64,000 bases of DNA from Ruminococcus flavefaciens AE3010 (GTDB taxonomy: Bacteria > Bacillota > Clostridia > Oscillospirales > Ruminococcaceae), in assembly GCF_000526795.1 (NCBI RefSeq), contig NZ_JAGT01000001.1, forward strand, positions 581,001-645,000. Direction: 5' to 3'. Made by a program: the position numbers and the translations under genes. This document shows, piece by piece, positions 20,713 to 49,122 of the stretch (positions are counted from its first letter, which is position 1; each line of letters starts with the position of its first letter). The notes below the pieces were generated by a model. It was given only the letters and a program-made list of their open reading frames with translations, did no database searches and was not told the origin of the DNA.

Positions 20713-20726
20713 AAGGGGGAGACGAT

Positions 20727-32452: not shown

Positions 32453-33106
32453 ATGAATTACAAGGAAAGCTTTATAAAATTCATGGTGGACTGCGGTGTG
32501 CTTACATTCGGCGAGTTCACGCTGAAAAGCGGAAGAAAGGCTCCTTACTTCATCAACTGCGGAAACTATAAAACAGGCGCTCAGCTTGCAAAACTTGGTG
32601 AATACTATGCCGAGTGCATCAAAGCAAATGATATCCCTGTAGATACCCTTTTCGGACCTGCATATAAGGGTATCCCGCTGGCTGTATCTGCTGTTGTTGC
32701 TCTGAGCAATAAGTTCGGCCTCGACGTTTCCTACTGCTTCGACAGAAAAGAAGCAAAGGACCACGGCGAAGGCGGTATGTTCGTAGGAAAGGCTCTCGAA
32801 GATAACGAAAGAGTTGTCATCATCGACGATGTTATGACTTCTGGAAAGGCTCTCCGCGAGTCTATGCCAAAGCTTATGACTGCTGCTGATGTTAATGTAA
32901 CAGGTATGGTCATCACTGTTGACCGTATGGAAAAAGGCACAGGTGAGCTTTCTGCTGTTCAGGAAGTCAAGAGAGACTTCGGCGTTATCGTCTACCCTAT
33001 CGTTACTATGGAGGATATCATCGAGGCCATTAAGAACGATATCGTTCCGGGCAAGGAATACCTTGATAAGATGCTCGAATACAGAGAAAAGTACGGTGTA
33101 AAATAA
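32453..33106 (+). CDS. pyrE: Orotate phosphoribosyltransferase
   Basis: This enzyme makes orotidine monophosphate from orotate and PRPP. The PRPP signature VVIIDDVMTSGKAL is present, with TLFGPAYKGIPL and CFDRKEAKDHGEGG upstream of it. The length is 217 residues. GGAGG lies 9 bases before ATG 32453. It follows the zinc-ribbon gene by 41 bases without a terminator. Confidence 0.95.
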   Translation: MNYKESFIKFMVDCGVLTFGEFTLKSGRKAPYFINCGNYKTGAQLAKLGEYYAECIKANDIPVDTLFGPAYKGIPLAVSAVVALSNKFGLDVSYCFDRKEAKDHGEGGMFVGKALEDNERVVIIDDVMTSGKALRESMPKLMTAADVNVTGMVITVDRMEKGTGELSAVQEVKRDFGVIVYPIVTMEDIIEAIKNDIVPGKEYLDKMLEYREKYGVK

Positions 33107-33112
33107 TAAAAA

Positions 33113-33142
33113 AGAGCCTGTGACAAAATCTCAGGCTTTCTT
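33113..33142 (+). terminator. Terminator of pyrE
   Basis: AGCCTG / CAGGCT stem with an imperfect inner part, followed by TTCTTTTTC. The 33143-33256 stretch after it holds nothing recognisable apart from AT-rich sequence. Confidence 0.65.
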
Positions 33143-33256
33143 TTTCAGGAAGGCTCAGGGAGCATAAAAGGCATTTTCCATATCTTATTTATATTTTCTT
33201 TTTTCTATAAAAAGGAGTAAGAAAATAAGGATTATCCTCCCTATCGTCTCTGATAA

Positions 33257-33287
33257 AAAGAGCACTTCCGATATGGAAGTGCTCTTT
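33257..33287. terminator. Bidirectional terminator at the carrier gene 3' end
   Basis: AAAGAGCACTTCC / GGAAGTGCTCTTT, 13-bp perfect stem with a 5-base loop, ending two bases before the carrier's stop codon. Confidence 0.88.
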
Positions 33288-33289
33288 AT

Positions 33290-34501
33290 TTACTTGAATA
33301 AGATTATCAGGAACTGCGATACCAGTACAACTGAAATTAAAGCTACGGGGTATGTAGCAGCATATGCGGAAGCAACGTTTTCTGTACCTGCTGTACTGAT
33401 AAGAGTACCGAGGGCAGGGGTAGATGTCATACCGCCTGTGATAGATCCGAGGTTATTGAGAAGGCTCAGCTTCAGAACGTACTTAGCAAACAGATATCCG
33501 ATTATCATAGGTACGATAGTCATTATCATACCGTACACAAAGTATACTGCATCAAAATACTGTACGAACTTTGCTCCGCCCGATACTCCTGCGCCGATAA
33601 GGAAGAACATGAGTCCAAGCTCACGGAATACCTTGAGGGTAGAATCCTTAGGCATTATGGAGAACTTGCCGATGCGTCCGAAATGTCCGAATATAAGGGA
33701 TACAAGCAGACATCCGCCTGTTGTTGAAAGTGAGAAGTTCCCGAATTTGAATGAACCAATGATTATGCCGAAAAATGCAGCAAGTGCAAATGGCATTATG
33801 CCGAAGCTGTCCATCTCGATGAGCTTGAACATCTTCTTTTCCCTTGTTTCTTTTTTAGCTGTAGGTGCAAGCAGTTCCCTTTCCTTTGCCATATCAGCCT
33901 TTGTGAGCTTGGGGATGATCTGTACAAACAGAACAACGCCAATAACTCCGAAGATATATGCGATCGCATAGCCAACGGAAACGATACTCTGAAGATGATC
34001 ACTTCCGACAGCGTCCTTGGCAGCCGAGAATCCGGGAGTACTTGTAAGAGCACCTGAAAGTATACCTGTCAGCATTGCGGTAAACTCTTCGCTGTCAAGG
34101 TCAGTGAAGTTTCTGCCTACCATGATGCAGCCTGCGCAGGAAAGTCCTCCGCTCAGGATAATGATTATTGCAAGAATAACATAGGACTTGAAGTTTTTCT
34201 TGAAGTTGCCGAAGAAATTAGGGCCTGCAATAAAGCCGACTGCCGTAACGAACAGGATAAGTCCGAGATTATCAACTATTTTCAGAGCATTTCCAACGAA
34301 GTCGGTATTTATCTCAGCCGAAAGGTATTTATAAAAAATGCAGCCGTAGATAAGTGCGACGATGAAAACGCCTGCTGTACCCAGAGAAATGCCTTTTATA
34401 GTTATTCTTCCGAGGATATAGCCAAGTGCTGCAATAGTAATGACCGACAGCATAAGGAAGGAAACGCCGTGAATCGACAGAATTCCATTAAAAAAATCCA
34501 T
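33290..34501 (-). CDS. AspT/YidE-type carrier (AAEx family), probable C4-dicarboxylate or aspartate carrier
   Basis: This 403-residue membrane protein has two homologous five-helix halves, each with the family loop: GALTSTPGFSAAKDA (about 150) and GGMTSTPALGTL (about 367). A cytoplasmic loop of about 40 residues separates the halves, but the TrkA-C domains found in AspT and YidE are missing. Known members include aspartate:alanine antiporter AspT and the succinate exporter SucE of Corynebacterium. It follows frdA by 68 bases on the same strand, so succinate export or aspartate/fumarate exchange is a reasonable inference. Confidence 0.8.
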   Translation of the reverse strand: MDFFNGILSIHGVSFLMLSVITIAALGYILGRITIKGISLGTAGVFIVALIYGCIFYKYLSAEINTDFVGNALKIVDNLGLILFVTAVGFIAGPNFFGNFKKNFKSYVILAIIIILSGGLSCAGCIMVGRNFTDLDSEEFTAMLTGILSGALTSTPGFSAAKDAVGSDHLQSIVSVGYAIAYIFGVIGVVLFVQIIPKLTKADMAKERELLAPTAKKETREKKMFKLIEMDSFGIMPFALAAFFGIIIGSFKFGNFSLSTTGGCLLVSLIFGHFGRIGKFSIMPKDSTLKVFRELGLMFFLIGAGVSGGAKFVQYFDAVYFVYGMIMTIVPMIIGYLFAKYVLKLSLLNNLGSITGGMTSTPALGTLISTAGTENVASAYAATYPVALISVVLVSQFLIILFK

Positions 34502-34538
34502 TTATATCACTTAACTTTCTTTTATATTATACGTATTT

Positions 34539-34564
34539 ATGGGACGCTTTTTACAGCGTCCCAT
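34539..34564. terminator. Hairpin between frdA and the carrier gene
   Basis: ATGGGACGCT / AGCGTCCCAT, 10-bp perfect stem, 6-base loop. No T-run follows on the minus strand, so it may protect the frd transcript end or lower readthrough into the carrier gene. Confidence 0.5.
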
Positions 34565-34569
34565 TAAAA

Positions 34570-36171
34570 TTATTTTTTTCTTGCATATTTGGGGAGAAGC
34601 ATAGGTGATGCTACTTCGCTTGCAGCTCCTGCTGCTTCAAGCTCCTTGTTGAACTTCTCGATATGAGCAAGTGTGAGCTTTGCGGGAGCAGCTGTTTCCT
34701 TAGCCTTTGCAGCTGCGTAAATACCTGCGTTACGACCGAATACGATGACATCAAGGAGAGAATTGCCCATGAGTCTGTTTCTGCCGTGGATACCGCCTGC
34801 TACCTCGCCTGCCGCATAGAGGTTCTCTACACCTGTAGCGCAGTCGTCGGATATTTCAAGTCCGCCGTTCTGGTAGTGAAGAGTTGGGTATACAAGAATA
34901 GGCTCCTTGCGGATATCGATGCCATACTTGCCGAACATCCTCATCATTGCAGGGATACGCTTCTCGATAGTACCCTCGCCGTGGATAAGCTCTATCATGG
35001 GAGTATCCAGCCAAAGTGCCTTGCCGAGGTTTGTCTCCACGCCCTTGCCGCGCTCTGTACATTCGCGGATAATCGAAGCGGCTGTTACGTCACGGGTCTC
35101 AAGTGGGTGCATAAATACATCACCGTCGATATTAACAAGCTTTGCGCCCAGTGAACGGACCTTTTCTGTAACGAGTGCGCCGAATATCTGCTCGGGATAG
35201 CCTGTACCCGTTGGGTGATACTGCAATGTATCAGCATAGAGAAGCTTTGCACCAACACGGTAGCCGAGGATAAGTCCATCAGCTGTTGCGCCGTAGTGGT
35301 TTGAAGTCGGGAAGCCCTGATAGTGAAGACGTCCTGCGCCGCCAGTAGCGATAATAACAGTCTTAGCCTTGGCAACGAGAAGCTCCTTTGTTTCCATGTT
35401 CATAAGCACAGCACCTGATGCCCTGCCGTTTTCATCAAGGATTATCTCGATTGCAGCTGTAAAGTCGATAACAGGGATACCGCGGTTTATGACTTCATCA
35501 CGGAGAGTACGCATTATCTCAGCGCCTGAGTAGTCCTTTGCAGCGTGCATACGCTTGCGAGAAGTACCGCCGCCGTGAGTTGTTACCATTGTGCCGTCAG
35601 GCTCTTTATCGAATTCAACGCCAAGCTTGTTGAGCCACTGTATAGCCTCGGGAGCCTTTGTAACAAGCTTCTTTACAAGCTCGGGCTTTGCTGCAAAGTG
35701 ACCGCCGCCGAAAGCGTCGAGGAAGTGGATCGCAGGTGAATCGTTAGGCTTGTCGGCAGCCTGAATACCGCCCTCAGCCATCATTGTATTAGCATCACCT
35801 ATACGGAGCTTTGTAACGATCATTGCCTTTACGCCTGCTTCATCAGCTTCGATGGCAGCAGATGCTCCTGCACCGCCGCCGCCGATTATAAGCACGTCTG
35901 TCTCATAATCGGGAGCTGTAAGGTCTACGTCGTCAGCGCTGATACGGCTCTTGCCCTGTAAAAGCGCAGCAAGCTGTGTAGGAACTTTATCGCCCTTGTT
36001 TACGCCTGCGGAAAGAACAGTGAATTCGTCCTGCTTGTAGTCAGGGTGGAAATGAGCGAGGAGGTCGTCCTTCTCCTCAGCTGTCATACGTCTTGGTTCA
36101 AGAGCTGCATTTTCTGCTCTCTTAGCTGCAACTACCTTTGCAAGCTCGTTAAGTTTATCTATCTTGTACAT
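34570..36171 (-). CDS. frdA: Soluble fumarate reductase flavoprotein subunit
   Basis: This is a member of the Frd/Sdh/TfrA flavoprotein family (533 aa). FAD-binding GGGGAGASAA lies at 97-106; the substrate site has HPTG (His319-Gly322), ETRDV (Arg360, proton-transfer Arg) and LHYQNGG (His432); GRNRLMGNSLLDV completes the FAD pocket. The His that binds FAD covalently in membrane Frd/Sdh is Asn128 here (DANTMMAEGG), so FAD should be non-covalent. There is an unusual 90-residue N-terminal extension and a shortened C-terminus. No membrane anchor gene accompanies it. It is the last catalytic gene of the fumC-hdr-flx-frd operon. Confidence 0.9.
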   Translation of the reverse strand: MYKIDKLNELAKVVAAKRAENAALEPRRMTAEEKDDLLAHFHPDYKQDEFTVLSAGVNKGDKVPTQLAALLQGKSRISADDVDLTAPDYETDVLIIGGGGAGASAAIEADEAGVKAMIVTKLRIGDANTMMAEGGIQAADKPNDSPAIHFLDAFGGGHFAAKPELVKKLVTKAPEAIQWLNKLGVEFDKEPDGTMVTTHGGGTSRKRMHAAKDYSGAEIMRTLRDEVINRGIPVIDFTAAIEIILDENGRASGAVLMNMETKELLVAKAKTVIIATGGAGRLHYQGFPTSNHYGATADGLILGYRVGAKLLYADTLQYHPTGTGYPEQIFGALVTEKVRSLGAKLVNIDGDVFMHPLETRDVTAASIIRECTERGKGVETNLGKALWLDTPMIELIHGEGTIEKRIPAMMRMFGKYGIDIRKEPILVYPTLHYQNGGLEISDDCATGVENLYAAGEVAGGIHGRNRLMGNSLLDVIVFGRNAGIYAAAKAKETAAPAKLTLAHIEKFNKELEAAGAASEVASPMLLPKYARKK

Positions 36172-36183
36172 GCTCTCGCTCCC

Positions 36184-36867
36184 TTACTTCTCTATCTCGC
36201 GGTGGTTGTACATATCCTTGATCTCTTCGATATTGTTTACCGCCTTGGTCATGAGCTCTTCGATCTCCTTATCAAAGATACCCTCGTTTACTTCCTTAAC
36301 TCTGTCGGAGAGGTGTCCACACTCAGGCTCTATGTACTTGCCGTTGAGACGTCTTGCAAGCATAGCTACCTGTGGGTGGGAAATGCCTGCGGGACATCGT
36401 GAAGAACATACTCCGCACATTACGCAGTCAAAGCTCTCCTCTGCACACTTGTCGTACTCCCCTCTCTGAGCGTATGCGATATACTGCATAACGTTGAGCT
36501 CCTGAGTACAAGCCTTTGTACAGGCATTACAGCCGATACAGCTGTATATCTCGGGATAGAGCTGCATCATTATCTGCTGTGTGGGTTTTATTTCCTCGAT
36601 ATTGTAAACTCTCTTTTCAAGTGGGAAGAAGGGCAGAGTTGCAACGTACATTCCCTCCTGAACCTCTGTCTGACAGGCAAGACAGCCGTGAAGCTCTATC
36701 TCGCCCTTTATTCTGTATATGGTAGCACAAGCTCCGCAGAAACCGTTACGGCAGCCGCAGCCTCTTACAAGGTCATAGCCTGCATATTCCATAGCTGTCA
36801 TTATCGTAAGACCTGCAGGCACTTCATACTTCTTGCCGAACAGGTAAACATTCAACATATTATCCAT
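36184..36867 (-). CDS. frdB: Fumarate reductase iron-sulfur subunit (2Fe-2S plus two 4Fe-4S)
   Basis: The N-terminal plant-type ferredoxin domain has C37, C39, C44, C47 and C62, C65. The C-terminal helical ferredoxin domain has two complete CxxCxxCxxxC motifs (C110-C120 and C148-C158). In E. coli FrdB one of these holds a 3Fe-4S centre facing quinone; here both are four-Cys, as expected for a soluble partner with no quinone. The arrangement matches the N-terminal half of methanogen thiol:fumarate reductase TfrB. The gene is 12 bases upstream of frdA. GGAGA precedes ATG 36867. Confidence 0.88.
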   Translation of the reverse strand: MDNMLNVYLFGKKYEVPAGLTIMTAMEYAGYDLVRGCGCRNGFCGACATIYRIKGEIELHGCLACQTEVQEGMYVATLPFFPLEKRVYNIEEIKPTQQIMMQLYPEIYSCIGCNACTKACTQELNVMQYIAYAQRGEYDKCAEESFDCVMCGVCSSRCPAGISHPQVAMLARRLNGKYIEPECGHLSDRVKEVNEGIFDKEIEELMTKAVNNIEEIKDMYNHREIEK

Positions 36868-36882
36868 GCGAATTTCTCCTTA

Positions 36883-37710
36883 TTAATATTCGTCGGGCAG
36901 TTCCCCAAGCTGATCGAAACGGAAAACAGGACCGTCCTTGCAGACATACTTATTACCGATATTGCAGCGTCCGCACTTACCAACTCCGCACTTCATGCGA
37001 AGCTCCATGGTAGTATAGACCTGAGTTTCTGTGAAGCCCAGTTCTTTAAGTCCTGCAAGGGTAAATTTTATCATTATAGGCGGTCCGCAGACAAGAACTG
37101 TCTTGCTTGTGGAAGGATTAAGCTCCTTGACATAGTTGGGAACAAAGCCTACATGACCGTCCCAACCCTCCTGCGGATTGTCTATAGTAAGATTAACCTC
37201 GATATTAGGATCAGCCATCCACTCGTCGATTATCTCCTGATAGTCAACGAGGTCATCCTTTGAACGGGAACCGTATATTACCTGCACGTCGCCGTAATTG
37301 GAACGGTTATCGCGTACATAGTTGATAACGGAACGGAGAGGTGCAAGACCGATACCGCCTGCAATAAAGAGAAGATCCTTGCCCTTTAAGTCTGTTTCAA
37401 CAGGGAAAGCATTGCCGTATGGTCCGCGGATAGTTATCTGCTGACCTACGTCCATAGCGTGGAGCCATGTGGTGAGGCAGCCGCACTTCTTTATGCTGAA
37501 CTCCATAAATTCCTTGTTTGTGGGAGAAGAGGTTATAGAGAACATAGCCTCGCCAACGCCCGGAATGGAAAGCATTGCACACTGTCCCGGCATATGCTCG
37601 AAGACCTTTCCGCCCTCGGGAGAAACAACTCTGAATGTCTTTACATCGGGAGTATCCTGTCTTATATCGGTAACTACACCAATGTAAGGTATCAATGTAT
37701 CGTTATTCAT
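36883..37710 (-). CDS. flxA: FlxA-like NAD(P)H:FAD oxidoreductase subunit
   Basis: This is a ferredoxin-reductase-fold protein (275 aa) with an FAD domain (about 1-95), a pyridine-nucleotide motif GGIGLAPLRS and VLVCGPP, and a C-terminal 2Fe-2S site KCGVGKCGRC plus one later Cys, as in PyrK and anaerobic sulfite reductase B. In Desulfovibrio FlxABCD this subunit oxidises NADH. The start at ATG 37710 uses GGAGG and shares one base with the flxB stop (TGATG); a longer in-frame reading into flxB is not needed. The name is by homology and context. Confidence 0.85.
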   Translation of the reverse strand: MNNDTLIPYIGVVTDIRQDTPDVKTFRVVSPEGGKVFEHMPGQCAMLSIPGVGEAMFSITSSPTNKEFMEFSIKKCGCLTTWLHAMDVGQQITIRGPYGNAFPVETDLKGKDLLFIAGGIGLAPLRSVINYVRDNRSNYGDVQVIYGSRSKDDLVDYQEIIDEWMADPNIEVNLTIDNPQEGWDGHVGFVPNYVKELNPSTSKTVLVCGPPIMIKFTLAGLKELGFTETQVYTTMELRMKCGVGKCGRCNIGNKYVCKDGPVFRFDQLGELPDEY

Positions 37711-38729
37711 CACTTTACCTCCAATGCTTTCATTACCTTGACGATATTCATGGATATCGGACACTTTGAGAGACATCTTCCGCAGCCTACACAGCCGAAT
37801 TCGCCGTTATTGTTTGCTGGGAAATATACAAGCTTGTGCATGAATCTCTGGCGGAAACGCTCAAGCTGAGTAAGTCTCGGGTTGCCGTGTGCCATTTTTG
37901 TGAAATCGGAATACATACATGAATCCCAGCAGCGGAAACGCTTTATGCCATGACCTGTATTGAAGTCCTTTATATCGTAGCACTGACAGGTGGGACATAC
38001 GAATGTACATGTACCGCAGCCGAGACAGCTTTCGGAAAGTTCTCCCCACTTGTCAGAGCTGAAGTATTCGTTGAGCTTGTCACCGCCGAAATTGTCAGTA
38101 GTAAGATTTGCAAGAGGGAGCTTTTTCAGTATCTCTCTTGTTTTGGTGCGTGCAGCTTCAAGCTTTGAAGTGTCGCCCTCTTCAAGGAGTGATGAGATAC
38201 TGTCGATGAACTTCTGTCCCTTTTCGTTATGTGCCTCTATGAACAGGCTCTCGCCGTCGCTGTAGCAGGCCGCGTCACCCTCGGGAGCAGCTGCGTCTAT
38301 GCCGAATGTTCCGCAGAAACAAGTCTCGGCAGGACGTGTACAAGCCATGGTGACTACTGTACCGTGATCGCGTCGGTTCTTATAAAAGCTGTCCACAGGC
38401 TCTGCAAGGAACACCTTATCAAGTATGGTGAAGCTTCTTGCGTCACAGGCACGGACGCCGAATATTACGAAGTCCTCTGATTCCTCACGTACATCTACTA
38501 CCTCAATGCTCTTGCCTTCCATTTTGAAGTCAACAAGGTTCTCGGTCTGAGGGAAGAAGAAATCCTTTGCACTGCGAAGAGTATTGAGAGCGCTGCTGAG
38601 CTTCATGCCGCCTTCGTACTTCTTGTACTCGGCAACTCCGTCCTCGCGGTCTACAGGAATATAGAGAGTCTGTGAAGCTGAAATAGCTTCAAAAAGCTTA
38701 TCAAGCTTGTCAAGTGATATTTTCAGCAT
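37710..38729 (-). CDS. flxB: FlxB-like 4Fe-4S dicluster protein
   Basis: This 339-residue protein is related to anaerobic sulfite reductase subunit A. A long N-terminal region with its own cysteines (RACDARSF, CTRPAETCFCGTFG) is followed by two clusters, CLGCGTCTFVCPTCQC (about 237-252) and CVGCGRCLSKCPIS near the end. It probably relays electrons between FlxA flavin and the rest of the complex. Its ends overlap flxC and flxA by one base each, indicating fixed stoichiometry. Confidence 0.82.
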   Translation of the reverse strand: MLKISLDKLDKLFEAISASQTLYIPVDREDGVAEYKKYEGGMKLSSALNTLRSAKDFFFPQTENLVDFKMEGKSIEVVDVREESEDFVIFGVRACDARSFTILDKVFLAEPVDSFYKNRRDHGTVVTMACTRPAETCFCGTFGIDAAAPEGDAACYSDGESLFIEAHNEKGQKFIDSISSLLEEGDTSKLEAARTKTREILKKLPLANLTTDNFGGDKLNEYFSSDKWGELSESCLGCGTCTFVCPTCQCYDIKDFNTGHGIKRFRCWDSCMYSDFTKMAHGNPRLTQLERFRQRFMHKLVYFPANNNGEFGCVGCGRCLSKCPISMNIVKVMKALEVK

Positions 38730-39700
38730 TATTCAACTCCCCTTTCGTGTACTACAGAGGCTTCGCAGTCGTTCTGCTTGTAATCGTTAAGCGGAGCACG
38801 TGAGGTAGTATCCTCGCCTGCCTGATATTCGCCGTAAAGTGAATTGATGTCCTTTATGAACTTGCGGTTCAGCAAATGAAGCGGGATATTCTGTGGGCAT
38901 ACCCTTGAACACTCGCCGCAGTCTGTACATCTTCCCGCAACATGGAAAGCTCTGATTATATGGAACATATTCTCCTCAAAGCTGTCAGCGGGAGCTTTAT
39001 TCTCAACGCCCGAATCAGGATTATCGAATACGCACTTCTCACAAGTGCAGGCCGGACAGACGTTTCTGCACGCATTACAGCGGATACACTTGGAAAGCTG
39101 CTCACGCCAGAAGTCATAGCGCTCCTGAGCAGCCATATTCTCCAGCTTTTCAACCATATCGAAACGGTTGGAGTCGAGAACGTCGCCCTCCTCGCCCATG
39201 AGCTCGTCATAGACAACGTGCTTCTTGCTCTTGCAGGAAGCGCACTTATCAAGGACTGCTTCATAGAACGGCATTTTCTCCTCGCCGTAAACAGTATCTA
39301 TTTTCAGCGTATAGTTCTCGTTCTTCACACTGAGTATACCTGTTATGCCCTTAGCCTTTATTTTCTCGGCGTCAAGCTTTGGACCGCCCGGGATACCCAC
39401 TATATAAACGTTCTCACGAACAACTCTGTGTTCCTTTGTGAGCTGATTGAAGCTGTATGTATCGCAGGGCTTTAAGAATACGAGGATTTTGCCCTCTTTT
39501 TTGCTCTCCTTTACGAGGTACTTGGATACATTTGCAGCTGTAAAATCATCATATACGAACTCTTTATCGAGCTCTTCGGCTGTTTCAAATACAGCAGGGG
39601 TAATGTCATAAGCGAATTCTCCCCTCTTCCAGCCGATAACACGGCTTACAGTACCGTCAGCCAGAAGCTGCTTTGCTTTATTTATCATTGCTTCCTGCAT
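38729..39700 (-). CDS. flxC: FlxC-like 4Fe-4S protein
   Basis: The N-terminal half of this 323-residue protein resembles the FrhB/FdhB fold (FLKPCDTYSFNQLTKE, CASCKSKKHV); the C-terminal half has CIRCNACRNVCPACTC (about 209-224) and CTDCGECSRVCPQN (about 259-272). It parallels FlxC of the Hdr-Flx complex as an internal electron carrier. ATG 39700 has GGAGG upstream and overlaps flxD by 16 bases. Confidence 0.8.
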   Translation of the reverse strand: MQEAMINKAKQLLADGTVSRVIGWKRGEFAYDITPAVFETAEELDKEFVYDDFTAANVSKYLVKESKKEGKILVFLKPCDTYSFNQLTKEHRVVRENVYIVGIPGGPKLDAEKIKAKGITGILSVKNENYTLKIDTVYGEEKMPFYEAVLDKCASCKSKKHVVYDELMGEEGDVLDSNRFDMVEKLENMAAQERYDFWREQLSKCIRCNACRNVCPACTCEKCVFDNPDSGVENKAPADSFEENMFHIIRAFHVAGRCTDCGECSRVCPQNIPLHLLNRKFIKDINSLYGEYQAGEDTTSRAPLNDYKQNDCEASVVHERGVE

Positions 39701-40131
39701 CTCAGGTCCTCCAATCTGCGGTTTGGTCCGAGCTTTCTTACAGCCTCGGTGAACTCGTTCATGGTAGCAGCAAACTTAGCGCCCTCTGCTGCCGATACCC
39801 ACTCAACTCTTGTTCTGTCACGCTCAATTCCAAGGAAATCAAGCATACTGAACAGCAGTGTCATTCTTCTTCTTGTGAAGTAGTTGCCCGATGTATAGTG
39901 GCAGTCACCCGGGTGGCAGCCGCAGAGTATAACACCGTCAGCTCCGCGCTGGAAAGCTCTGAGTATGAACATGGGATTTACTCTGCATGAGCAGGGTACT
40001 CTGATTATCTTGACGTTTGCGGGATAATTCAGTCTGTTTGTACCTGAAAGATCGGCGCCTGCATATGAACACCAGTTACAGCAGAACGCAACGATCAGCG
40101 GCTGAAAATCTTTATTATCATTTACTTGCAT
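39685..40131 (-). CDS. flxD: MvhD/FlxD-type 2Fe-2S subunit
   Basis: This 148-residue protein has the MvhD pattern: FCCNWCSYAGADLSG, PCSCRVNP and LCGCHPGDCHY. MvhD joins HdrA to its electron donor module and carries a 2Fe-2S centre. Position between hdrA and flxC fits that role. The start overlaps hdrA by 10 bases, with GGAGGTGG upstream. Confidence 0.92.
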   Translation of the reverse strand: MQVNDNKDFQPLIVAFCCNWCSYAGADLSGTNRLNYPANVKIIRVPCSCRVNPMFILRAFQRGADGVILCGCHPGDCHYTSGNYFTRRRMTLLFSMLDFLGIERDRTRVEWVSAAEGAKFAATMNEFTEAVRKLGPNRRLEDLRCRKQ

Positions 40132-42113
40132 ATTGCGTCCACCTCCGACATGATCTGGCTGTTAGAGAATCCGCTGAGATCCATAGCTCCCGAAGGACAA
40201 GCGACTGTACAAGCGCCGCAGCCCTGACATACAGCAGGGTTAACACTTGCAACTCTGCGGACAGCGATGGTTCTGTCAGGCATTTTGAATTCCTTGTCGA
40301 TATATGTTATCGCGCCGTAAGGACATACCTTTTCGCATGACGAGCAGCCATTGCACATGAGCTCGTCCGAATGAGCAACACAGGGATTGCAGGTTATGCT
40401 GTTCTTTACAAGAAGTCCGATAGCCTTTGCAGCAGCAGCACTTGCCTGTGCAACTGTTTCGGGGATATCCTTTGGTCCCTGACATGCACCTGAAAGGAAT
40501 ATACCTGCTGTAGCGCTCTCTACAGGGCGAAGCTTAGGGTGAGCTTCGGTGAAGAAGTCATTTGTGTCCATCTGAGTTGTGAGCATTGTAGCCAGCGGAC
40601 GTGCTGTCTTGTCAGGCTCGATGGCAGCTGCAAGAACTACCATATCTGCGTCGATGTGGAGCTGTTCATTTGCCAGCAGGTCGGAAGCCTGTACGTCAAT
40701 CTTACCGTCGGAACGAGGTGTTACCTTGCCCACCATGCCCTTTATGTAGTGTACGTTGTACTGCTCGACAGCACGGCGGTAGAATTCGTCGAAGTTCTTG
40801 CCGGGAGTACGAACGTCTATGTAGAATACGTATACCTCAGTATCAGGGTACTTCTCGCGGATAAGCATAGCATGCTTTGCTGTATACATACAGCATATCT
40901 TTGAGCAGTAAGGCTTGCCCTTGCTGTCGTCACATCTTGAACCTACGCACTGTACGAAAACTATCTTGTGAGGGTGGGTCTTGTCGGAAGGACGAAGCAG
41001 TGTGCCGCCGTTAGGACCTGCGGCATTCATAAGTCTTTCAAGCTCCAGTGATGTAACAACGTCAGGACACTGATTGTATGCAAATTCGTCGTACTTGTCG
41101 AGATTGATAGGATTGAAGCCCGTAGCAACAACGATAGCGCCGTACTTCTGCTCAATGAATCTGTCCTCCTGCTTGTAGTCGATAGCACCTGCGGAGCATA
41201 CTGAGGAACAGATACCGCACTTGCCCTTTGAAAGCATCATACAGTGGTTCGGATCGATAGTTGCGACCTTAGGAACAGCCTGAGCAAAAGGAATGTATAT
41301 GGCTGTACGATTATCAAGTCCCATATTGAACTCGTTGGGGACTTTTTTCATGGGACATTTCTCGGTACAGAGACCGCAGCCCGTACATTTTGTTTCATCA
41401 ACGAAACGTGCCTTTTTCTTTATCTTTACTGTGAAATTACCCACAAAGCCCTTGACATCAGCAACTTCGCTGAATGAATGTATGGTTATATGCTCATTCT
41501 GAGAAGCTTCAACCATTTTAGGTGTAAGGATACACGCTGCGCAGTCAAGTGTGGGGAAGGTCTTGTCTATCTGAGCCATTTTACCGCCGATAGTAGGATT
41601 CTTCTCCACAATATCAACATCGAAGCCTGCTTCGGCAATATCAAGTGCAGTCTGGATACCTGCAATGCCGCCGCCAATTACAAGAGCTCTCTTGACTACG
41701 GGGCTCTCGCCTGCTGTCAGAGGTGAATTGAGATGTACCTTTGCAACTGCTGCCTTGCCAAGGATAATTGCTTTTTCAGTCGCAGAAGCTATATCCTTGT
41801 GTATCCATGAACATTGTTCACGAATATTTGCTATTTCAACAAGATATGGGTTCAGACCTGCGGAAGCAGCTGCTTTTCTGAATGTATTCTCGTGCATTCT
41901 CGGTGAACATGAGCAAACTACGACACCTGTAAGGTTATGCTCCTTTATAGCATTCTTTACAAGATTCTGTCCCGACTCGGAACACATATACTGATAGTCC
42001 TGAGAGATAACAACCCCAGGCTCATGCCCCAGCGCTTCGGCTACAGCTTTGACGTCTACCGTTGCAGCGATATTGGTACCGCAATGACAGACAAAAACGC
42101 CTATTCTCTTCAT
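40122..42113 (-). CDS. hdrA: Heterodisulfide reductase subunit A (bifurcating flavoprotein)
   Basis: HdrA is the flavin-containing core at which electrons split. From the N-terminus it has a Cys-containing domain (VCHCGTN), the FAD motif VIGGGIAGIQTALDIAEAG near 148, the typical IGGKMAQIDKTFPTLDC, an inserted ferredoxin CTGCGLCTEKCP, and two C-terminal clusters CNGCSSCEKVCP and CQGCGACTVACP. The length is 663 residues; no MvhD fusion. It is central to the proposed NADH/ferredoxin/fumarate complex. hdrC lies 14 bases upstream. Confidence 0.93.
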   Translation of the reverse strand: MKRIGVFVCHCGTNIAATVDVKAVAEALGHEPGVVISQDYQYMCSESGQNLVKNAIKEHNLTGVVVCSCSPRMHENTFRKAAASAGLNPYLVEIANIREQCSWIHKDIASATEKAIILGKAAVAKVHLNSPLTAGESPVVKRALVIGGGIAGIQTALDIAEAGFDVDIVEKNPTIGGKMAQIDKTFPTLDCAACILTPKMVEASQNEHITIHSFSEVADVKGFVGNFTVKIKKKARFVDETKCTGCGLCTEKCPMKKVPNEFNMGLDNRTAIYIPFAQAVPKVATIDPNHCMMLSKGKCGICSSVCSAGAIDYKQEDRFIEQKYGAIVVATGFNPINLDKYDEFAYNQCPDVVTSLELERLMNAAGPNGGTLLRPSDKTHPHKIVFVQCVGSRCDDSKGKPYCSKICCMYTAKHAMLIREKYPDTEVYVFYIDVRTPGKNFDEFYRRAVEQYNVHYIKGMVGKVTPRSDGKIDVQASDLLANEQLHIDADMVVLAAAIEPDKTARPLATMLTTQMDTNDFFTEAHPKLRPVESATAGIFLSGACQGPKDIPETVAQASAAAAKAIGLLVKNSITCNPCVAHSDELMCNGCSSCEKVCPYGAITYIDKEFKMPDRTIAVRRVASVNPAVCQGCGACTVACPSGAMDLSGFSNSQIMSEVDAICK

Positions 42114-42127
42114 GGTGCTGTCTCTCC

Positions 42128-42511
42128 TTACTTTATGTATTTTCTGAATGCTGTAACGATAGCCTGCTGTGGCAGATCGTCATCAAGCATTTCAGGTATC
42201 TGATTCGGGTTCATATGGTTGTTACCCTGCTTACGAACAGCGGCAAGACGTACAGCTTCAACCACCTTTGCAGGTTCAACATTTCGGGGACATCTGTCAA
42301 CGCAGGCAAAGCAGGTAAGACATTTGTATATGGACTTTGAATTCATCAAGGTCTCAATGTCGCCGCGCTCCACCATGTATACGAACTGATGCGGATGATA
42401 TTCCATTTCGTCATATGAGGGACAGGTTCCCGAACATTTACCGCAGCGCATGCATTTGAGAACATTTACTCCGCTTGAACGCAGGACCTGTTCTTTTAAA
42501 TTATTATCCAT
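42128..42511 (-). CDS. hdrC: Heterodisulfide reductase subunit C
   Basis: This small protein (127 aa) has two 4Fe-4S motifs, CMRCGKCSGTCPSY (about 20-31) and CLTCFACVDRCPRN (about 64-75), spaced as in HdrC. It passes electrons from HdrA to HdrB. The start overlaps the hdrB end by 8 bases. Confidence 0.92.
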   Translation of the reverse strand: MDNNLKEQVLRSSGVNVLKCMRCGKCSGTCPSYDEMEYHPHQFVYMVERGDIETLMNSKSIYKCLTCFACVDRCPRNVEPAKVVEAVRLAAVRKQGNNHMNPNQIPEMLDDDLPQQAIVTAFRKYIK

Positions 42512-43301
42512 TCTGATCCTCCTTCAAGCCAAGCGCTTCTGCGAGTACCTCTGTAAAATAGTACACAGGAAGCTCTGAATCCGAGTTCTTTTTCAGATTA
42601 TAAAGACACAGCGGACAGGCTGTAATGATCATATCAGCTCCCTGATCCTGAGCAGAGTTCATTACAGCGCCGCTTCTTTTAGCAGCCTGAGCCTTGTCCT
42701 CAAGAGTGATATAGCCCCCGCAGCATTCGTTCCTCTGGGCGTATATAACAGGTGTGCCGCCGATAGCTTTAATAAAATCCTCCATTATACTGGGATTTTC
42801 AGGATCATCCATAGCAAGAGCTTTCGACGGACGAAGAAGCAGGCAGCCGTAATATGCGGCGATCTTCTTCCCTTTAAGAGGATTAACAACCTTCTGAGCA
42901 AGGTCATCAAATCCAACAACGTCACGAAGCATTTCAAGGTAATGATACACTGTTGTTTCGCCGTTATACGGTTCATCAAGTTTAAGGTAATTATTGACCT
43001 TTGCCGCCATTTCCTCATCGTTTGATATATCGTAATTAGTCTGCTTTATTACATTATGACAGGCTGAACAGACAGTGATAAGCGGTCTGTTATTCTCTTT
43101 TGCAGAGTTGAGCGTCCTTACTGCTGAAAGCTTTGTAGCTATTTCGTCCTTAGCAGTCGTATACGCGCCGCCGCAGCACTGCCAGTCAGCGGGCTCTTCA
43201 AGTGCGATACCAAGAAATTCGGCACTTTTTCTTGCATAAGTATCAAGATCCTTAGCCTTCGTTCTCAGAGTGCACCCCGGATAATATGTAAATGTTTCCA
43301 T
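42504..43301 (-). CDS. hdrB: Heterodisulfide reductase subunit B
   Basis: HdrB contains two full CCG motifs: C10-x31-C42C43-x34-C78-x2-C81 and C153-x39-C193C194-x34-C229-x2-C232. In methanogen HdrB these hold the two non-cubane 4Fe-4S clusters that reduce a disulfide, so this copy looks catalytically complete. Here the physiological acceptor could be a disulfide or, as in the CCG half of TfrB, a link to fumarate reduction. The length is 265 residues. It lies 24 bases downstream of fumC. Confidence 0.92.
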   Translation of the reverse strand: METFTYYPGCTLRTKAKDLDTYARKSAEFLGIALEEPADWQCCGGAYTTAKDEIATKLSAVRTLNSAKENNRPLITVCSACHNVIKQTNYDISNDEEMAAKVNNYLKLDEPYNGETTVYHYLEMLRDVVGFDDLAQKVVNPLKGKKIAAYYGCLLLRPSKALAMDDPENPSIMEDFIKAIGGTPVIYAQRNECCGGYITLEDKAQAAKRSGAVMNSAQDQGADMIITACPLCLYNLKKNSDSELPVYYFTEVLAEALGLKEDQNG

Positions 43302-43325
43302 ATATGCGCTTCCTTTCTAAAATGA

Positions 43326-44702
43326 TCAGACCATCTCTTCGGGATGAAATACTTCATCAAATCGCTCGGCAGTAAGGAAACCGAGTTCAACGCATGCTTC
43401 TTTGAGGGAAATATTGTCCTTAAAAGCTTTTTTGGCTGTCTTTGCAGCATTTTCGTAGCCGATATAAGGATTTAAAGCAGTTACCAGCATGAGTGAATTA
43501 TGTAAATTATGATGCATCTTTTCCTTATTAGCCTTTATGCCGACAGCACAGTTCTTGTTGAATGATGTTATCGACTCAGCAAGAAGTCTTGCGGATTGCA
43601 GGAAATTATATGCACATACAGGCATGAACACATTGAGCTCAAAGTTGCCCTGAGAAGCTGCCATACCTACTGTAACATCATTTCCCATTACCTGTACTGC
43701 GACCATTGTTACCTGCTCGCACTGTGTAGGATTGACCTTGCCCGGCATTATTGACGAGCCCGGTTCGTTCTCGGGAATAAATATTTCTCCCAGTCCGTCA
43801 CGGGGGCCAGATGCAAGCCATCTTACATCGTTTGCTATCTTCATCATATCAGCAGCAAGAGCTTTAAGAGCGCCGTGCGCGAATACTATTTCGTCTTTTG
43901 AAGTAAGAGAGTGGAATTTATTAGGCGAAGATATGAATTTTTTGCCTGTGAGCTCGCTTATCTTTTCAGCAGCCTTTTCAGCAAACCCCTTTGGCGCATT
44001 AAGACCTGTTCCTACTGCTGTACCGCCCACTGCAAGCTCTTTGAGCTCGTCGCAGGCTGCAAGGAGCATTTTCTTATCCTTTTCAAGTGAAGCTCTCCAG
44101 CCGCTTATCTCCTGTGAGAACTTGATAGGAGTTGCGTCCTGTAAATGAGTACGGCCGCTTTTTACGATGCCCTCATTTTCTTTTTCAAGGCGCTTAAAAG
44201 TCTCCATAAGAGTATCAACAGCAGGTATCACCTTATCCTCTACTGCAAGTACAGCGGCAATATGCATTGCAGTCGGAAATGTATCGTTCGATGACTGGCT
44301 CATATTGATATCATCGTTTGGATGAAGCAGCTTTGAGCCTGCGATCTCGTTTCCTCTGTTTGCAACGACCTCGTTGGTGTTCATGTTGGACTGAGTGCCA
44401 CTTCCTGTCTGCCATACGACAAGTGGGAAATGTTCATTGAGAGAACCGCTTATGACCTCGTCGCAAGCCTGACTGATAGCCGAAAGCTTTTCAGCCGTCA
44501 TTTTTTCGGGCCTCAGCTCATGGTTTGCAAGAGCAGCAGCTTTTTTCAGTATACCCAGAGCATGAGTTATCTCTCTCGGCATCGTCTCAATGCCTACACC
44601 GATAAGAAAGTTTTCGTGGCTTCTCTCGGTCTGAGCTCCCCAGTACTTATCCGCAGGTACCTTTACTTCACCCATGGAATCATGTTCAACGCGATAATCC
44701 AT
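43326..44702 (-). CDS. fumC: Class II fumarase
   Basis: This enzyme interconverts malate and fumarate without an Fe-S cluster. The signature GSSIMPGKVNPTQCE is present, with SGRTHLQDATPI and SSNDTFPTAMHIA. The start at ATG 44702 gives MDYRVEHDSMGEVKVPADK, aligned with E. coli FumC; an upstream in-frame ATG (44750) has no ribosome site, while GGGAGTG lies before 44702. It is the first gene of the operon that ends with frdA, supplying the substrate of the reductase. Confidence 0.95.
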   Translation of the reverse strand: MDYRVEHDSMGEVKVPADKYWGAQTERSHENFLIGVGIETMPREITHALGILKKAAALANHELRPEKMTAEKLSAISQACDEVISGSLNEHFPLVVWQTGSGTQSNMNTNEVVANRGNEIAGSKLLHPNDDINMSQSSNDTFPTAMHIAAVLAVEDKVIPAVDTLMETFKRLEKENEGIVKSGRTHLQDATPIKFSQEISGWRASLEKDKKMLLAACDELKELAVGGTAVGTGLNAPKGFAEKAAEKISELTGKKFISSPNKFHSLTSKDEIVFAHGALKALAADMMKIANDVRWLASGPRDGLGEIFIPENEPGSSIMPGKVNPTQCEQVTMVAVQVMGNDVTVGMAASQGNFELNVFMPVCAYNFLQSARLLAESITSFNKNCAVGIKANKEKMHHNLHNSLMLVTALNPYIGYENAAKTAKKAFKDNISLKEACVELGFLTAERFDEVFHPEEMV

Positions 44703-44781
44703 TTTAATATCCACTCCCAGAAAATTTTCAGATCCCGTGCCGAATGACATCAGGATACAATTTAAACTATCACATATAATA

Positions 44782-44810
44782 AGTATACCAGTATATTATG
44801 AATAATTCAA
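44782..44810 (-). promoter_or_regulatory. Promoter of the fumC-hdr-flx-frd operon
   Basis: On the minus strand TTGAAT (44810-44805), 17-bp spacer, TATACT (44787-44782) with TGG extension, about 80 bp before fumC. Confidence 0.75.
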
Positions 44811-44840
44811 ATTCAAGTTAAGAATATCGCTATTCAGATA

Positions 44841-44858
44841 TTGATATATAATTAACAA
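44841..44858. promoter_or_regulatory. Candidate Rex operator upstream of fumC
   Basis: TTGATATATAATTAACAA matches 12 of 14 fixed positions of the clostridial Rex consensus TTGTTAA-N4-TTAACAA; the right half is perfect. It lies about 30 bp upstream of the -35. The rest of 44859-45182 is AT-rich and holds no gene or other recognisable element. Confidence 0.5.
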
Positions 44859-45182
44859 TGATGTATTTACAAATATTTTATATATTGTCCCTGCAATATA
44901 TTTATTTTTATATTACTGATCTGATAGGTATTGTGATTCAAGACCATTAAGTATATTATTTCAAGCAACACACTTACTTTCCGTAATAAAACAGGCAATT
45001 ATAACAATAAAACCAGTGGTCATTCCTTTAATAATTTACAGGATAGGATTTATGTTTCGGAAAAAACAAGCTATATTTTTTATGTAAAGCATATAATAGT
45101 CAATAGCATTTCAGAATATGATAATTCCATTTTATATATAAAGCAGCAAAAAGATTGATATTTATTTCACATTGTCATATAA

Positions 45183-45212
45183 AAAACGAAACAGCTTTCG
45201 CTGCTTCGTTTT
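45183..45212 (-). terminator. Terminator of acnA-icd-rex
   Basis: AAAACGAA-CAGC-GAAA-GCTG-TTCGTTTT on the minus strand with one mismatch, then TTTATAT. It lies just after the rex stop. Confidence 0.8.
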
Positions 45213-45215
45213 ACA

Positions 45216-45863
45216 TTATTTTTTTTCGTCTTTTTCAAGATTATTCAAGCCATAGGAAAGCGTGGTAAGGCTGTCTCCGAGATGAACATTCTCAACAGCG
45301 ATTCCCTTATGGGTAACTTTAAGGTCGTAGTGTGTAAAGTTCCAGAAAGCTTTTATCCCACACTCTATAAGTGTATTCGCAAGCTTTTCGGCTGCATTCA
45401 TAGGAACACAAAGAATAGCTGCTACAGGCTTATTTTCAGCGCAGAATGTGCTTAATTCATCTGTGCTCCTGACCTTCAGCTCTCCCACTTCCTTGCCGAC
45501 AATATCTGGATTTACATCAAATGCACCGATAAGATCAAAGCCTTTATTGCGGAAATCAATGTGTGAAGCTATAGCTTTACCGAGATTACCTGCACCAAGC
45601 AGTATCATAGGTGTCTGCTTGTCCAGTCCGAGTATCTTGCCGATTTCAAGGCGAAGATCGCTTACGTTATAGCCGTAGCCCTGCTGACCGAATTCACCGA
45701 AGCAGTTGAAGTCCTGTCTTATCTGCGAAGCGGTAAGTCCCATTTTCTCAGAAAGTTCACGGGACGATATACGAACATATCCGTTATGTTCAAGTTCGCC
45801 GAGAAAGCGGTAGTAACGAGGCAGTCTCCTGATTACTGAATTTGATATTGAGTTCTTTGACAT
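45216..45863 (-). CDS. rex: Redox-sensing transcriptional repressor Rex
   Basis: Rex binds DNA when NAD+ is high and leaves it when NADH rises. The winged-helix N-terminus (VIRRLPRYYRFLGEL, SSRELSEKMGLTASQIRQDF) is followed by a Rossmann domain with LLGAGNLGKAIA and a C-terminal swapped helix. The length is 215 residues. It is third gene of acnA-icd-rex, and a Rex-like site overlaps the promoter of that operon, so autoregulation is likely. Confidence 0.95.
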   Translation of the reverse strand: MSKNSISNSVIRRLPRYYRFLGELEHNGYVRISSRELSEKMGLTASQIRQDFNCFGEFGQQGYGYNVSDLRLEIGKILGLDKQTPMILLGAGNLGKAIASHIDFRNKGFDLIGAFDVNPDIVGKEVGELKVRSTDELSTFCAENKPVAAILCVPMNAAEKLANTLIECGIKAFWNFTHYDLKVTHKGIAVENVHLGDSLTTLSYGLNNLEKDEKK

Positions 45864-45884
45864 TACTGTATGCCTTCTCTCTTA

Positions 45885-47096
45885 TCACATTAATTTATCA
45901 AGTCTGATCTTTATTTCGTCAAGGAAGGTCTTTGAATCGACCTTTTTCTTATTGTCGAGCTTGGATATAAGATAAAGATCGCCCGTCATTATGCCGTCTT
46001 CAATAGTCTGGATAGTTGCCTTTTCAAGCTTGTCAGCAAATGCACAGAGCTCGGGAGTGTTATCAAGCTCGCCTCTCTTGCGGAGTGCACCGCTCCACGC
46101 GAATATTGTAGCTACAGAGTTAGTTGATGTCTCTTCACCCTTGAGGTACTTATAGTAGTGACGCTGAACAGTACCGTGTGCAGCTTCGTACTCATAGATA
46201 CCGTCAGGAGAAACGAGAACAGAAGTCATCATTGCAAGGCTGCCGTAAGCTGTAGATACCATGTCAGACATAACATCACCGTCATAGTTCTTGCAAGCCC
46301 AGATATAGCCGCCGTTTGAACGAATAACTCTTGCAACAGCGTCGTCGATAAGGGTATAGAAGTACTCTATGCCAGCTGCTTCATACTTCTCCTTATACTC
46401 ATTATCGTATATTTCCTGAAAAATATCCTTGAAGCGGTGATCGTACTTCTTGGAAATTGTATCCTTTGAAGCAAACCAAACGTCCTGTTTGAGGTCGAGA
46501 CCGTAATTGAGGCAAGCTCTTGCAAAGCCGGCGATAGAAGCGTCCAGGTTGTGAAGTCCCTGAATAATACCGTCACACTTGGTGAAATCATGGATAAGCT
46601 CGCGGGTCTCATTGCCGTTTTCGTCTGTTACGACCAGCTCAGCCTTGCTGCCCTTGCTTACACGCATTTCGGTGTTCTTGTAAACATCTCCGTAAGCGTG
46701 TCGAGCAATAGTGATAGGCTTTGTCCATGTGGGGATATAAGGCTCTATGCCCTTTACGATGATAGGAGTACGGAATACAGTACCGTCAAGAGCTGCACGG
46801 ATCGTGCCGTTAGGTGACTTCCACATCTGAGTGAGGTTGTACTCGGGCATTCTTGCAGCATTCGGTGTGATAGTTGCACACTTTACTGCTACACCGTACT
46901 TCTTTGTAGCCTCAGCTGAATCTATAGTTACCTGATCCTTAGTCTCTTCTCTGTGCTTCAGACCAAGGTCATAGTATTCGGTATTGAGCTCTACATATGG
47001 TTCAAGAAGAGTTTCCTTGATCCACTGCCAGAGGATTCTGGTCATCTCATCGCCGTCCATTTCGACAAGTGGAGTTTTCATGGTGATCTTTGACAT
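45885..47096 (-). CDS. icd: Isocitrate dehydrogenase (NADP, eukaryote-like type)
   Basis: The enzyme oxidises isocitrate to 2-oxoglutarate. The 403-residue protein is of the type II family (as in mitochondria), with [43 protein letters not shown] and [14 protein letters not shown]. Its place between acnA and rex indicates the oxidative, glutamate-making branch of the TCA cycle. It lies 21 bases downstream of acnA. Confidence 0.94.
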
Positions 47097-47117: not shown

Positions 47118-49055
47118 TTACTTCATGGATTCTCTTGTAAAGTCGAGAAGTCCGCCTGCAAGCATGATGTCCTTTGTACGTCCCGAAAGCTCGCAGAGTA
47201 CAGGTATCTCCTTGCCGTTAGTCTTGTTTACAACAGTAAGCTCGGACTTTCCTGCCTCTACAGCCTTTCTGACGTCAGCAAGCACAAGCTCATCGCCCTG
47301 TGAAATGCTGTCGTAGTCAGCCTCATTTACAAATGTAAGAGGAAGAATGCCTGCATTGATAAGGTTAGCTCTGTGGATACGAGCAAATGACTTAACAAGA
47401 ACAGCCTTTACGCCAAGATAGAGCGGTGCAAGTGCAGCGTGCTCTCTTGATGAGCCCTGTCCGTAGTTGGAACCGCCGACGATTATGCTCTTACCGAGAG
47501 ACTTAGCTCTCTCAGGGAAGCTTTCATCGCATACAGCGAAGCAGTGCTGTGAGATCTTCGGGATATTTGAACGCAGAGGAAGGATCTTTGCACCTGCAGG
47601 CATGATGTGATCAGTTGTGATATTGTCACCGACTTTAAGTGATACGGGAGCGTCGATAGTCTCAAGAAGCGGAGCTGTCTCGGGATAAGGCTTGATGTTT
47701 GGTCCGCGGAGTATCTCTACGCTGTCCATTTCCTCAACAGAAGCGGGCGGAACGATCATATTGTCGTTGATAACGAATTCCTCGGGGAGCTTGAAATCAG
47801 GCATGTCGCCAAGCTCTCTCGGGTCTGTGAGATAACCTGTAAGTGCGGATACAGCAGCCATTTCGGGAGATACAAGATATATCTGTCCGTCCTTAGTACC
47901 TGAGCGTCCCTCAAAGTTTCTGTTGAAGGTTCTCAGAGAGATACCCTTTGAATTAGGAGACTGTCCCATACCGATACATGGTCCGCATGCACTTTCAAGG
48001 ATCCTTGCACCTGCATCAATGAGTATAGAAAGCGCGCCGTTCTGAGCAAGCATATTGAGGACCTGCTTTGAACCGGGAGCAATTGCCAGTGATACATCGG
48101 GATTAACAGTCTTGCCCTTGAGTATATGAGCTACCTTCAGCATATCAAGAAGTGATGAGTTTGTACATGAACCGATACATACCTGATCTATCTTGAGTCT
48201 GCCTATCTCCTCAACGCTCTTAACGTTATCGGGAGAATGAGGACATGCTGCAAGAGGAACAAGCTCGCTGAGATTGATCTGAAGCTCCTCGTCATATACT
48301 GCATCAGGATCAGCAGCAAGAGGTGTCCATACTTCCTCGCGCTTCTGAGCCTTGAGGAACTGCTTTGTGATCTCGTCTGACGGGAATATAGATGTTGTAG
48401 CGCCAAGCTCTGCGCCCATATTTGTGATAGTAGCTCTTTCGGGAACTGAAAGTGTCTTTACGCCCTCGCCGCAGTACTCGATGACCTTGCCTACGCCGCC
48501 TTTAACGGAAAGTCTTCTGAGAACTTCAAGGATAACGTCCTTTGCAGCTACCCATGGTCTGAGCTTGCCTGTGAGTTCAACCTTAACTACCTTTGGACAT
48601 GTGATATAGTATGCTCCGCCGCCCATAGCAACAGCAACATCAAGTCCGCCTGCACCGATAGCGATCATACCGATACCGCCGCCTGTAGGAGTATGGCTGT
48701 CAGAGCCGATAAGAGTCTTCCCCGGGATACCGAAACGCTCAAGGTGTACCTGGTGGCAGATACCGTTACCAGGACGCGAGAAGTAAATGCCGTGCTTCTT
48801 TGCAACGCTGCCGATGAATCTGTGGTCGTCAGCGTTCTCGAAACCGCTCTGAAGAGTATTGTGATCTATGTAAGCGACTGAACGTTCTGTCTTTACGCGA
48901 GGAACGCCGATAGCTTCAAATTCAAGATAAGCCATTGTACCTGTAGCGTCCTGAGTAAGAGTCTGATCGATACGGATACCGATCTCCTGACCTTTGACGT
49001 ACTCGCCGTCTACCAAGTGTGCTTTGAGGATCTTTTCAGTTAAAGTTAAACCCAT
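47118..49055 (-). CDS. acnA: Aconitate hydratase
   Basis: This 645-residue aconitase has the 4Fe-4S cysteines in CIGSCTNSS and ACGPCIGMGQSPNS, GSDSHTPTGGGIGMIAIGAGG in the N-terminal domain, and the swivel-domain NYGQGSSREHAALAP. It is the short single-chain type common in anaerobes, close to homoaconitase and isopropylmalate isomerase fusions, but icd as neighbour supports aconitase. It is first gene of the Rex-linked operon. Confidence 0.93.
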   Translation of the reverse strand: MGLTLTEKILKAHLVDGEYVKGQEIGIRIDQTLTQDATGTMAYLEFEAIGVPRVKTERSVAYIDHNTLQSGFENADDHRFIGSVAKKHGIYFSRPGNGICHQVHLERFGIPGKTLIGSDSHTPTGGGIGMIAIGAGGLDVAVAMGGGAYYITCPKVVKVELTGKLRPWVAAKDVILEVLRRLSVKGGVGKVIEYCGEGVKTLSVPERATITNMGAELGATTSIFPSDEITKQFLKAQKREEVWTPLAADPDAVYDEELQINLSELVPLAACPHSPDNVKSVEEIGRLKIDQVCIGSCTNSSLLDMLKVAHILKGKTVNPDVSLAIAPGSKQVLNMLAQNGALSILIDAGARILESACGPCIGMGQSPNSKGISLRTFNRNFEGRSGTKDGQIYLVSPEMAAVSALTGYLTDPRELGDMPDFKLPEEFVINDNMIVPPASVEEMDSVEILRGPNIKPYPETAPLLETIDAPVSLKVGDNITTDHIMPAGAKILPLRSNIPKISQHCFAVCDESFPERAKSLGKSIIVGGSNYGQGSSREHAALAPLYLGVKAVLVKSFARIHRANLINAGILPLTFVNEADYDSISQGDELVLADVRKAVEAGKSELTVVNKTNGKEIPVLCELSGRTKDIMLAGGLLDFTRESMK

Positions 49056-49093: not shown

Positions 49094-49122
49094 ATTGTAC
49101 AACATTTAAAGCAGTTTGTCAA
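49094..49122 (-). promoter_or_regulatory. Promoter of acnA-icd-rex
   Basis: On the minus strand TTGACA (49122-49117), 17-bp spacer, TACAAT (49099-49094). Confidence 0.85.

Follow-up and report, generated by a model that had tools for sequence, protein, structure and literature searches.

How does Ruminococcus flavefaciens AE3010 deliver electrons to the fumarate reductase encoded in a 64,000-nucleotide stretch of its genome (contig NZ_JAGT01000001.1; hereafter the window), where frdB and frdA follow genes for a fumarase and for HdrABC and FlxABCD proteins? The question matters because R. flavefaciens-type bacteria are important rumen succinate formers, and that succinate feeds propionate. An earlier note, made from the sequence of the window, read the operon as a probable flavin-bifurcating fumarate reductase in which NADH would drive fumarate to succinate with coupled ferredoxin reduction. 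We regard a docked, soluble NADH:ferredoxin,fumarate bifurcating complex as the best reading and on balance a probable one. The earlier note knew of no described complex of this composition, and here it has to be corrected, since passages of PMC7282089 (2020) describe the same blocks. The composition is thus already in print, and the Ruminococcus operon adds one more case to a hypothesis that is published but biochemically untested. What is new here, and supports that hypothesis, is a linkage that survives re-ordering, an HdrC-like fold in FrdB, a missing UbiA match and a Rex-like site.

Genomic linkage

The ten minus-strand genes named in the earlier note, fumC-hdrB-hdrC-hdrA-flxD-flxC-flxB-flxA-frdB-frdA, were all confirmed by open reading frames (ORFs) with the domains expected for each. 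With FrdB as the probe, relatives were found in 233 stretches of genome contigs, of which the best 80 were kept; the nearest came from R. flavefaciens and Ruminococcus sp. records (97-99% identity in the best nine loci). All ten genes stood in the same order in 70 of these 80 loci, with one gene less than 90% covered in three (frdA 0.11 in L055, flxA 0.61 in L025, fumC 0.89 in L075). The other ten hold only the 3' part and begin inside the operon, the first match lying at most 94 bases from the locus start. The genes icd, rex and that of a transporter were also seen in 62 of the 80. Across the genus, FrdB was present in 107 of 125 genomes, and in 64 of the 68 with a completeness of 90% or more and a contamination of 5% or less. 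Two contigs bearing the Ruminococcus operon (L057 and L070) are titled Alistipes in the public record, so their titles or bins are probably wrong.

Within the class, FrdB was matched in 54 of 391 genomes, the window's own counted, and wide stretches were taken from 20 of the 53 others, covering 15 families. The nine hdr, flx and frd genes lay together in every one, in the order hdrBCA-flxDCBA-frdBA in 19 (in L126 the contig stops within frdA); the last one, from G269, is permuted to frdBA-hdrBCA-flxDCBA and was completed with a second stretch. Directly upstream stood fumC in eight. At the level of the phylum, 39 of 398 genomes matched, again with the window's own, and wide stretches came from 20 of the 38 others. 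The full nine-gene set was permuted in G395, G441 and G445 and ran hdrCBA-flxDCBA-frdBA in G640. The earlier note had asked for frdAB beside hdrA and flx in other genomes, and it was found there in 20 of 20 class and four of 20 phylum stretches, so that the full set of Flx and Hdr subunits is kept in 24 stretches and three gene orders.

Part of Hdr was kept in four more phylum stretches: hdrC, hdrB, hdrA, a large HdrA-like ORF, flxD and a weak flxC match precede frdBA in G663 and G511, and the arrangement is hdrC-hdrB-frdBA in G635 and G681. The giant HdrA-like ORFs (L177:6622-11091, 1489 residues; L179:6532-9744, 1070 residues) lie between hdrA and flxD/frdBA. The longer one starts with a GltD/NfnB-like part (Fer4_20, Pyr_redox_2), which may be an additional entry point for NAD(P)H joined to HdrA. 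Among the 19 class stretches in the common order, L134 (G173:C34) has its hdrA match split into two pieces, perhaps by a frameshift or an assembly error.

Protein subunits and genome content

Flavin and ferredoxin motifs in HdrA, both CCG motifs in HdrB, an NAD/FAD reductase with 2Fe-2S in FlxA and an MvhD pattern in FlxD had been noticed before, and all were recovered. HdrA has HdrA-type flavoprotein domains and aligns over nearly its full length with a solved HdrA, domain matches identify FlxA and FlxD, and the two CCG stretches of HdrB carry ten cysteines (two CCG-type clusters) that are invariant across 29 sequences, with an HdrB-model score of 135 bits, below the cut-off. FrdB does have the 2Fe-2S and two four-cysteine clusters ascribed to it, in three motifs whose 12 cysteines are invariant in 34 sequences, but its second half is no typical SdhB part; its nearest fold is HdrC. 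FrdA, which is extended by about 85 residues at its N-terminus and has a short C-terminus, carries the catalytic His/Glu/Arg set and the flavin adenine dinucleotide (FAD) fold of the fumarate reductase flavoprotein superfamily. Five catalytic residues, in the roles that we take them to have, are retained, and an invariant Asn stands in place of the covalent-FAD histidine.

The earlier description of a split thiol:fumarate reductase (Tfr) is a fair analogy, in that the front of the TfrB model finds its match in FrdB and the end in HdrB, but the scores are far below the cut-offs: 36.8 bits for FrdB and 39.7 for HdrB against 385, and 344.6 for FrdA against 718 for TfrA. Models of 8-methylmenaquinol:fumarate reductase likewise fell short (SdhA 220.1 bits of 1100; SdhE, matched by HdrB, 148.2 of 500).

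No membrane anchor gene is present in the operon, as had been claimed. Sdh_cyt (PF01127), seen in seven of 14 control genomes, was unmatched in the genome, the FrdC and FrdD families not having been searched. UbiA was also unmatched in this 3.7-Mb, three-contig, 98.89% complete genome, other quinone genes not having been searched, and the organism therefore probably has no quinone. The Rnf complex announced for the window is there, and its subunits C, D, E and B could be assigned at 16671-21518 on the plus strand. PEPCK_ATP was not found in the genome. There are two genes with [FeFe]-hydrogenase domains and ten FAD_binding_2 matches, those above 100 bits being FrdA, a NadB-like protein and a flavoprotein resembling vinyl phenol reductase and steroid dehydrogenase. 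At L113 (G000:C1:2516669-2521114), an ORF with an [FeFe]-hydrogenase domain lies just before a 551-residue flavoprotein like vinyl phenol reductase and ketosteroid dehydrogenase.

Mechanism and alternatives

We suggest that FlxA takes hydride from NADH and that electrons pass through FlxB, FlxC and FlxD to the FAD of HdrA, which would split them. One branch would run through the ferredoxin-type clusters of HdrA to ferredoxin, and the other through HdrC and HdrB, then FrdB, to FrdA, which would turn fumarate made by the fumarase into succinate. Ferredoxin oxidation by Rnf, with NAD+ as acceptor, could then power ion pumping. The functional claim of the earlier note fits the linkage through re-ordering, the catalytic residues, the missing UbiA and Sdh_cyt matches and a sole CCG protein in HdrB; docking, bifurcation and direction are inferences, as are the electron order, succinate export, Rex regulation and the step from a missing UbiA match to a missing quinone. 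Taking fumarate at +33 mV and NADH at -320 mV, the computed energy of the coupled reaction, which speaks to feasibility only, is -48.8 kJ/mol with ferredoxin at -420 mV and -33.4 kJ/mol at -500 mV, more favourable than the crotonyl-CoA-coupled reaction. If true, each succinate would, by way of Rnf and with no quinone involved, also contribute to an ion gradient, the energy and hydrogen accounting of these fermenters would change, and fumarate would be a direct electron-bifurcation acceptor, so far only proposed in the literature examined.

A bolder version, which we hold tentatively and think somewhat more doubtful than sound, makes FrdB an HdrC-like adaptor that docks FrdA on HdrB, whose clusters would serve as a wire without a thiol. 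The complex would then form a bifurcating class of its own with fumarate as the high-potential acceptor, with FrdBA as a swappable output module fed by other donors elsewhere, and would give Rnf-linked fumarate respiration to anaerobes that have no UbiA match and thus probably no quinone. Judged by FrdB as its marker, it would be present in 107 of 125 genomes of the genus and in many other families.

Several observations weigh against a docked bifurcating complex. UbiA scored above the cut-off in five of the 24 genomes with the full set (two among the 20 of the class) and in all four with a partial Hdr set. By sequence, RnfC ranks before HdrC as a relative of FrdB, and HdrB could still use a disulfide substrate because both cluster motifs are kept. 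Neither biochemical proof nor a bench test of such a complex was found in the literature searched. In passages of PMC7282089 on the similar operon of Pseudoclostridium thermosuccinogenes, the rise of the operon was not significant for all subunits, an approximately 2-fold drop of Rnf reached significance in two of its six subunits, and the effect of Na2S was opposite to that of H2, which its authors call 'confusing'. Finally, no Hdr match lay near frdBA (over about 9-12 kb on the upstream and 1-4 kb on the downstream side) in 12 of the 20 phylum stretches, so Hdr-Flx is not a universal requirement of FrdBA.

These Hdr-free cases also feed the idea that another donor (ferredoxin, flavodoxin or a hydrogenase) supplies FrdBA and that Hdr-Flx lies alongside but serves a separate function. 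In the examples chosen for annotation, frdBA adjoins genes for class I fumarase, malic enzyme, a family III CoA-transferase and a GltD/NfnB-like flavoprotein (L172), pyruvate carboxylase (L176), or succinyl-CoA-ligase-type proteins and an FMN_bind/Fer4 protein (L170). Cytochrome genes adjoin it in three others, of b561 type in L185 and L186 and of NapC type in L187, which suggests a membrane donor in place of Hdr-Flx. Because its neighbours vary, FrdBA seems to be a portable module for fumarate reduction, but its constant partner in the class sample is Hdr-Flx, the nine genes never being apart there, and possible alternative donors in some other contexts are what a swappable FrdBA would lead one to expect. 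We consider this reading with another donor improbable. Running the system backwards, as succinate oxidation with electron confurcation, seems to us very improbable indeed. Hdr-type bifurcation is reversible in principle, but the covalent-FAD histidine is replaced, and E. coli FrdA without covalent FAD reportedly loses succinate oxidation and not fumarate reduction; the fumarase and transporter also suit a reductive fermentation branch.

Flx-Hdr might instead merely wire NADH to FrdAB with no bifurcation, which is the strongest of the alternatives and still unlikely. A soluble NADH-dependent fumarate reductase of Hydrogenobacter thermophilus, which such a system would resemble in effect, is reportedly on record (Miura, 2008), and NADH to fumarate alone yields -68.1 kJ/mol, ample without coupling. 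However, HdrA is not truncated and includes both FAD and C-terminal ferredoxin-type domains, for which a plain wire would have no need, and every Flx and Hdr subunit is retained through all three gene orders. A little less likely again is a thiol-mediated route, in which Flx-Hdr would reduce a disulfide, either of a small molecule or of a protein, and the thiol would be used by FrdAB with HdrB as methanogen Tfr does, with no docked complex. The invariant HdrB cysteines and the resemblance of FrdB and HdrB to opposite ends of TfrB agree with such a route, whereas the TfrA and TfrB scores do not, no disulfide substrate is known here, and neither DsrC nor a second CCG protein was found in the genome, low-molecular thiols not having been searched.

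Comparison with described systems

The operon has a close counterpart in the 'succinate operon' of P. thermosuccinogenes (CDQ83_RS03315-RS03365), which, as described in passages of PMC7282089, likewise comprises a fumarate hydratase, seven Flx-Hdr genes, two fumarate reductase genes and a putative transporter. Coupling to ferredoxin is proposed for it too, as an assumption of earlier origin for which that paper cites a 2019 preprint (doi 10.20944/preprints201912.0288.v1), and the operon rises roughly 4-fold at 1% CO2. The organism is different, and those passages give no order inside the Flx-Hdr block, no Rex site and no analysis of subunit folds. Searches of the open-licence literature, by titles and the starts of abstracts, gave nothing on the R. 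flavefaciens operon (fumarate reductase with Rnf, or electron bifurcation), and the phrase 'bifurcating fumarate reductase' was unmatched in that literature.

All seven subunit types of the Desulfovibrio FlxABCD-HdrABC, reportedly described by Ramos in 2015, are also encoded together here. The proposed acceptor in Desulfovibrio is a disulfide carrier such as DsrC, whereas here frdAB is built in and DsrC is missing from the matches. Fitness evidence for Desulfovibrio Hdr/flox is given in a passage of PMC4215793 (2014), according to which it had not then been studied biochemically. Methanogen TfrAB shares the FrdA-type flavoprotein and the two TfrB ends, but here these are separate genes tied to HdrA-Flx. 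In tubeworm symbionts, Flx-Hdr genes are interspersed with a putative soluble fumarate reductase, and passages of PMC6315080 (2019) raise a possible complex passing Flx-Hdr electrons directly to thiol:fumarate reductase, as those of PMC11636981 suggest for TfrAB. That set differs in lying within a reductive tricarboxylic acid cycle cluster with korABCD, and PMC11636981 names tfrAB as the exception to the cluster's shared expression pattern. Quinol:fumarate reductase (complex II) has the same FrdA fold and catalytic residues, but here the anchor gene and the Sdh_cyt and UbiA matches are missing, and both clusters in the second half of FrdB are of the four-cysteine type.

Operon limits and Rex

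Neighbouring genes of the operon are spaced by -67 to +24 bases, in line with the overlaps and gaps under 30 bp reported before, and the -67 overlap vanishes if the flxA start behind GGAGG is chosen (Table 1). The fumC start given earlier is the more likely one, the ORF itself being open to 44750. To the ten genes we add an eleventh, for an Asp-Al_Ex transporter, which starts 68 bases past frdA and may export succinate; a strong hairpin directly after it ends the unit. The promoter-like site assigned to the operon exists, but at only nine of twelve consensus positions it is weak evidence by itself, because 33000-46000 holds 34 sites of such quality against 20.1 (standard deviation 4.3) in shuffles.

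Table 1. Features of the fumarate reductase operon and its upstream region (window positions)
Feature	Position	Strand	Evidence
Intrinsic terminator-like hairpin	33257..33287	-	Hairpin scan; 14 pairs, then T-run
Asp-Al_Ex (AspT/YidE/YbjL-type) transporter, possible succinate exporter, last gene of unit	33290..34501	-	Domain match
frdA, fumarate reductase flavoprotein	34570..36171	-	FAD_binding_2
frdB, 2Fe-2S plus double [4Fe-4S] domain with HdrC-like fold	36184..36867	-	2Fe-2S and Fer4 domains
flxA, FAD/NAD reductase with 2Fe-2S	36883..37710	-	ORF open to 37776; start 37710 behind GGAGG
flxB, sulfhydrogenase-beta/AsrA-like Fer4 protein	37710..38729	-	Domain matches
flxC, Fer4 protein	38729..39700	-	Fer4 domain
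flxD, FlpD/MvhD family	39685..40131	-	FlpD domain
hdrA, FAD and ferredoxin domains	40122..42113	-	Residues 3-660 align with solved HdrA
hdrC, two [4Fe-4S] motifs	42128..42511	-	Dicluster Fer4 domain
hdrB, two CCG stretches, ten cysteines	42504..43301	-	CCG domain; sole CCG protein found in genome
fumC, class II fumarase	43326..44702	-	TIGR00979, 712 bits (cut-off 664.75)
Promoter-like site TTGAAT-17-TATACT	44782..44810	-	9/12 consensus matches
Rex-like operator TTGTTAATTATATATCAA	44841..44858	-	2 mismatches to TTGTTAANNNNTTAACAA
rex, redox-sensing repressor, likely regulator	45216..45863	-	288.6 bits (cut-off 233); directly upstream of operon

At high NADH, Rex would be expected to release the operon from repression. 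With the clostridial motif TTGTTAANNNNTTAACAA, taken from a passage of PMC9600882, 48 of the 66 loci that could be tested have a site with at most two mismatches in the 400 bases preceding fumC, 11 have one with three mismatches and seven have none, compared with 1% and 11% for at most two and for three mismatches in single-base shuffles. The form TTGT[TG]AA-N4-ATATCAA is present in 50 of the 66, and 57 sites with at most two mismatches occur over all 80 loci (1.47 Mb). A second Rex-like site in the window, at 49116-49133 and also with two mismatches, lies upstream of an aconitase gene (47118-49055), after which come isocitrate dehydrogenase and rex, sharing the orientation of the operon.

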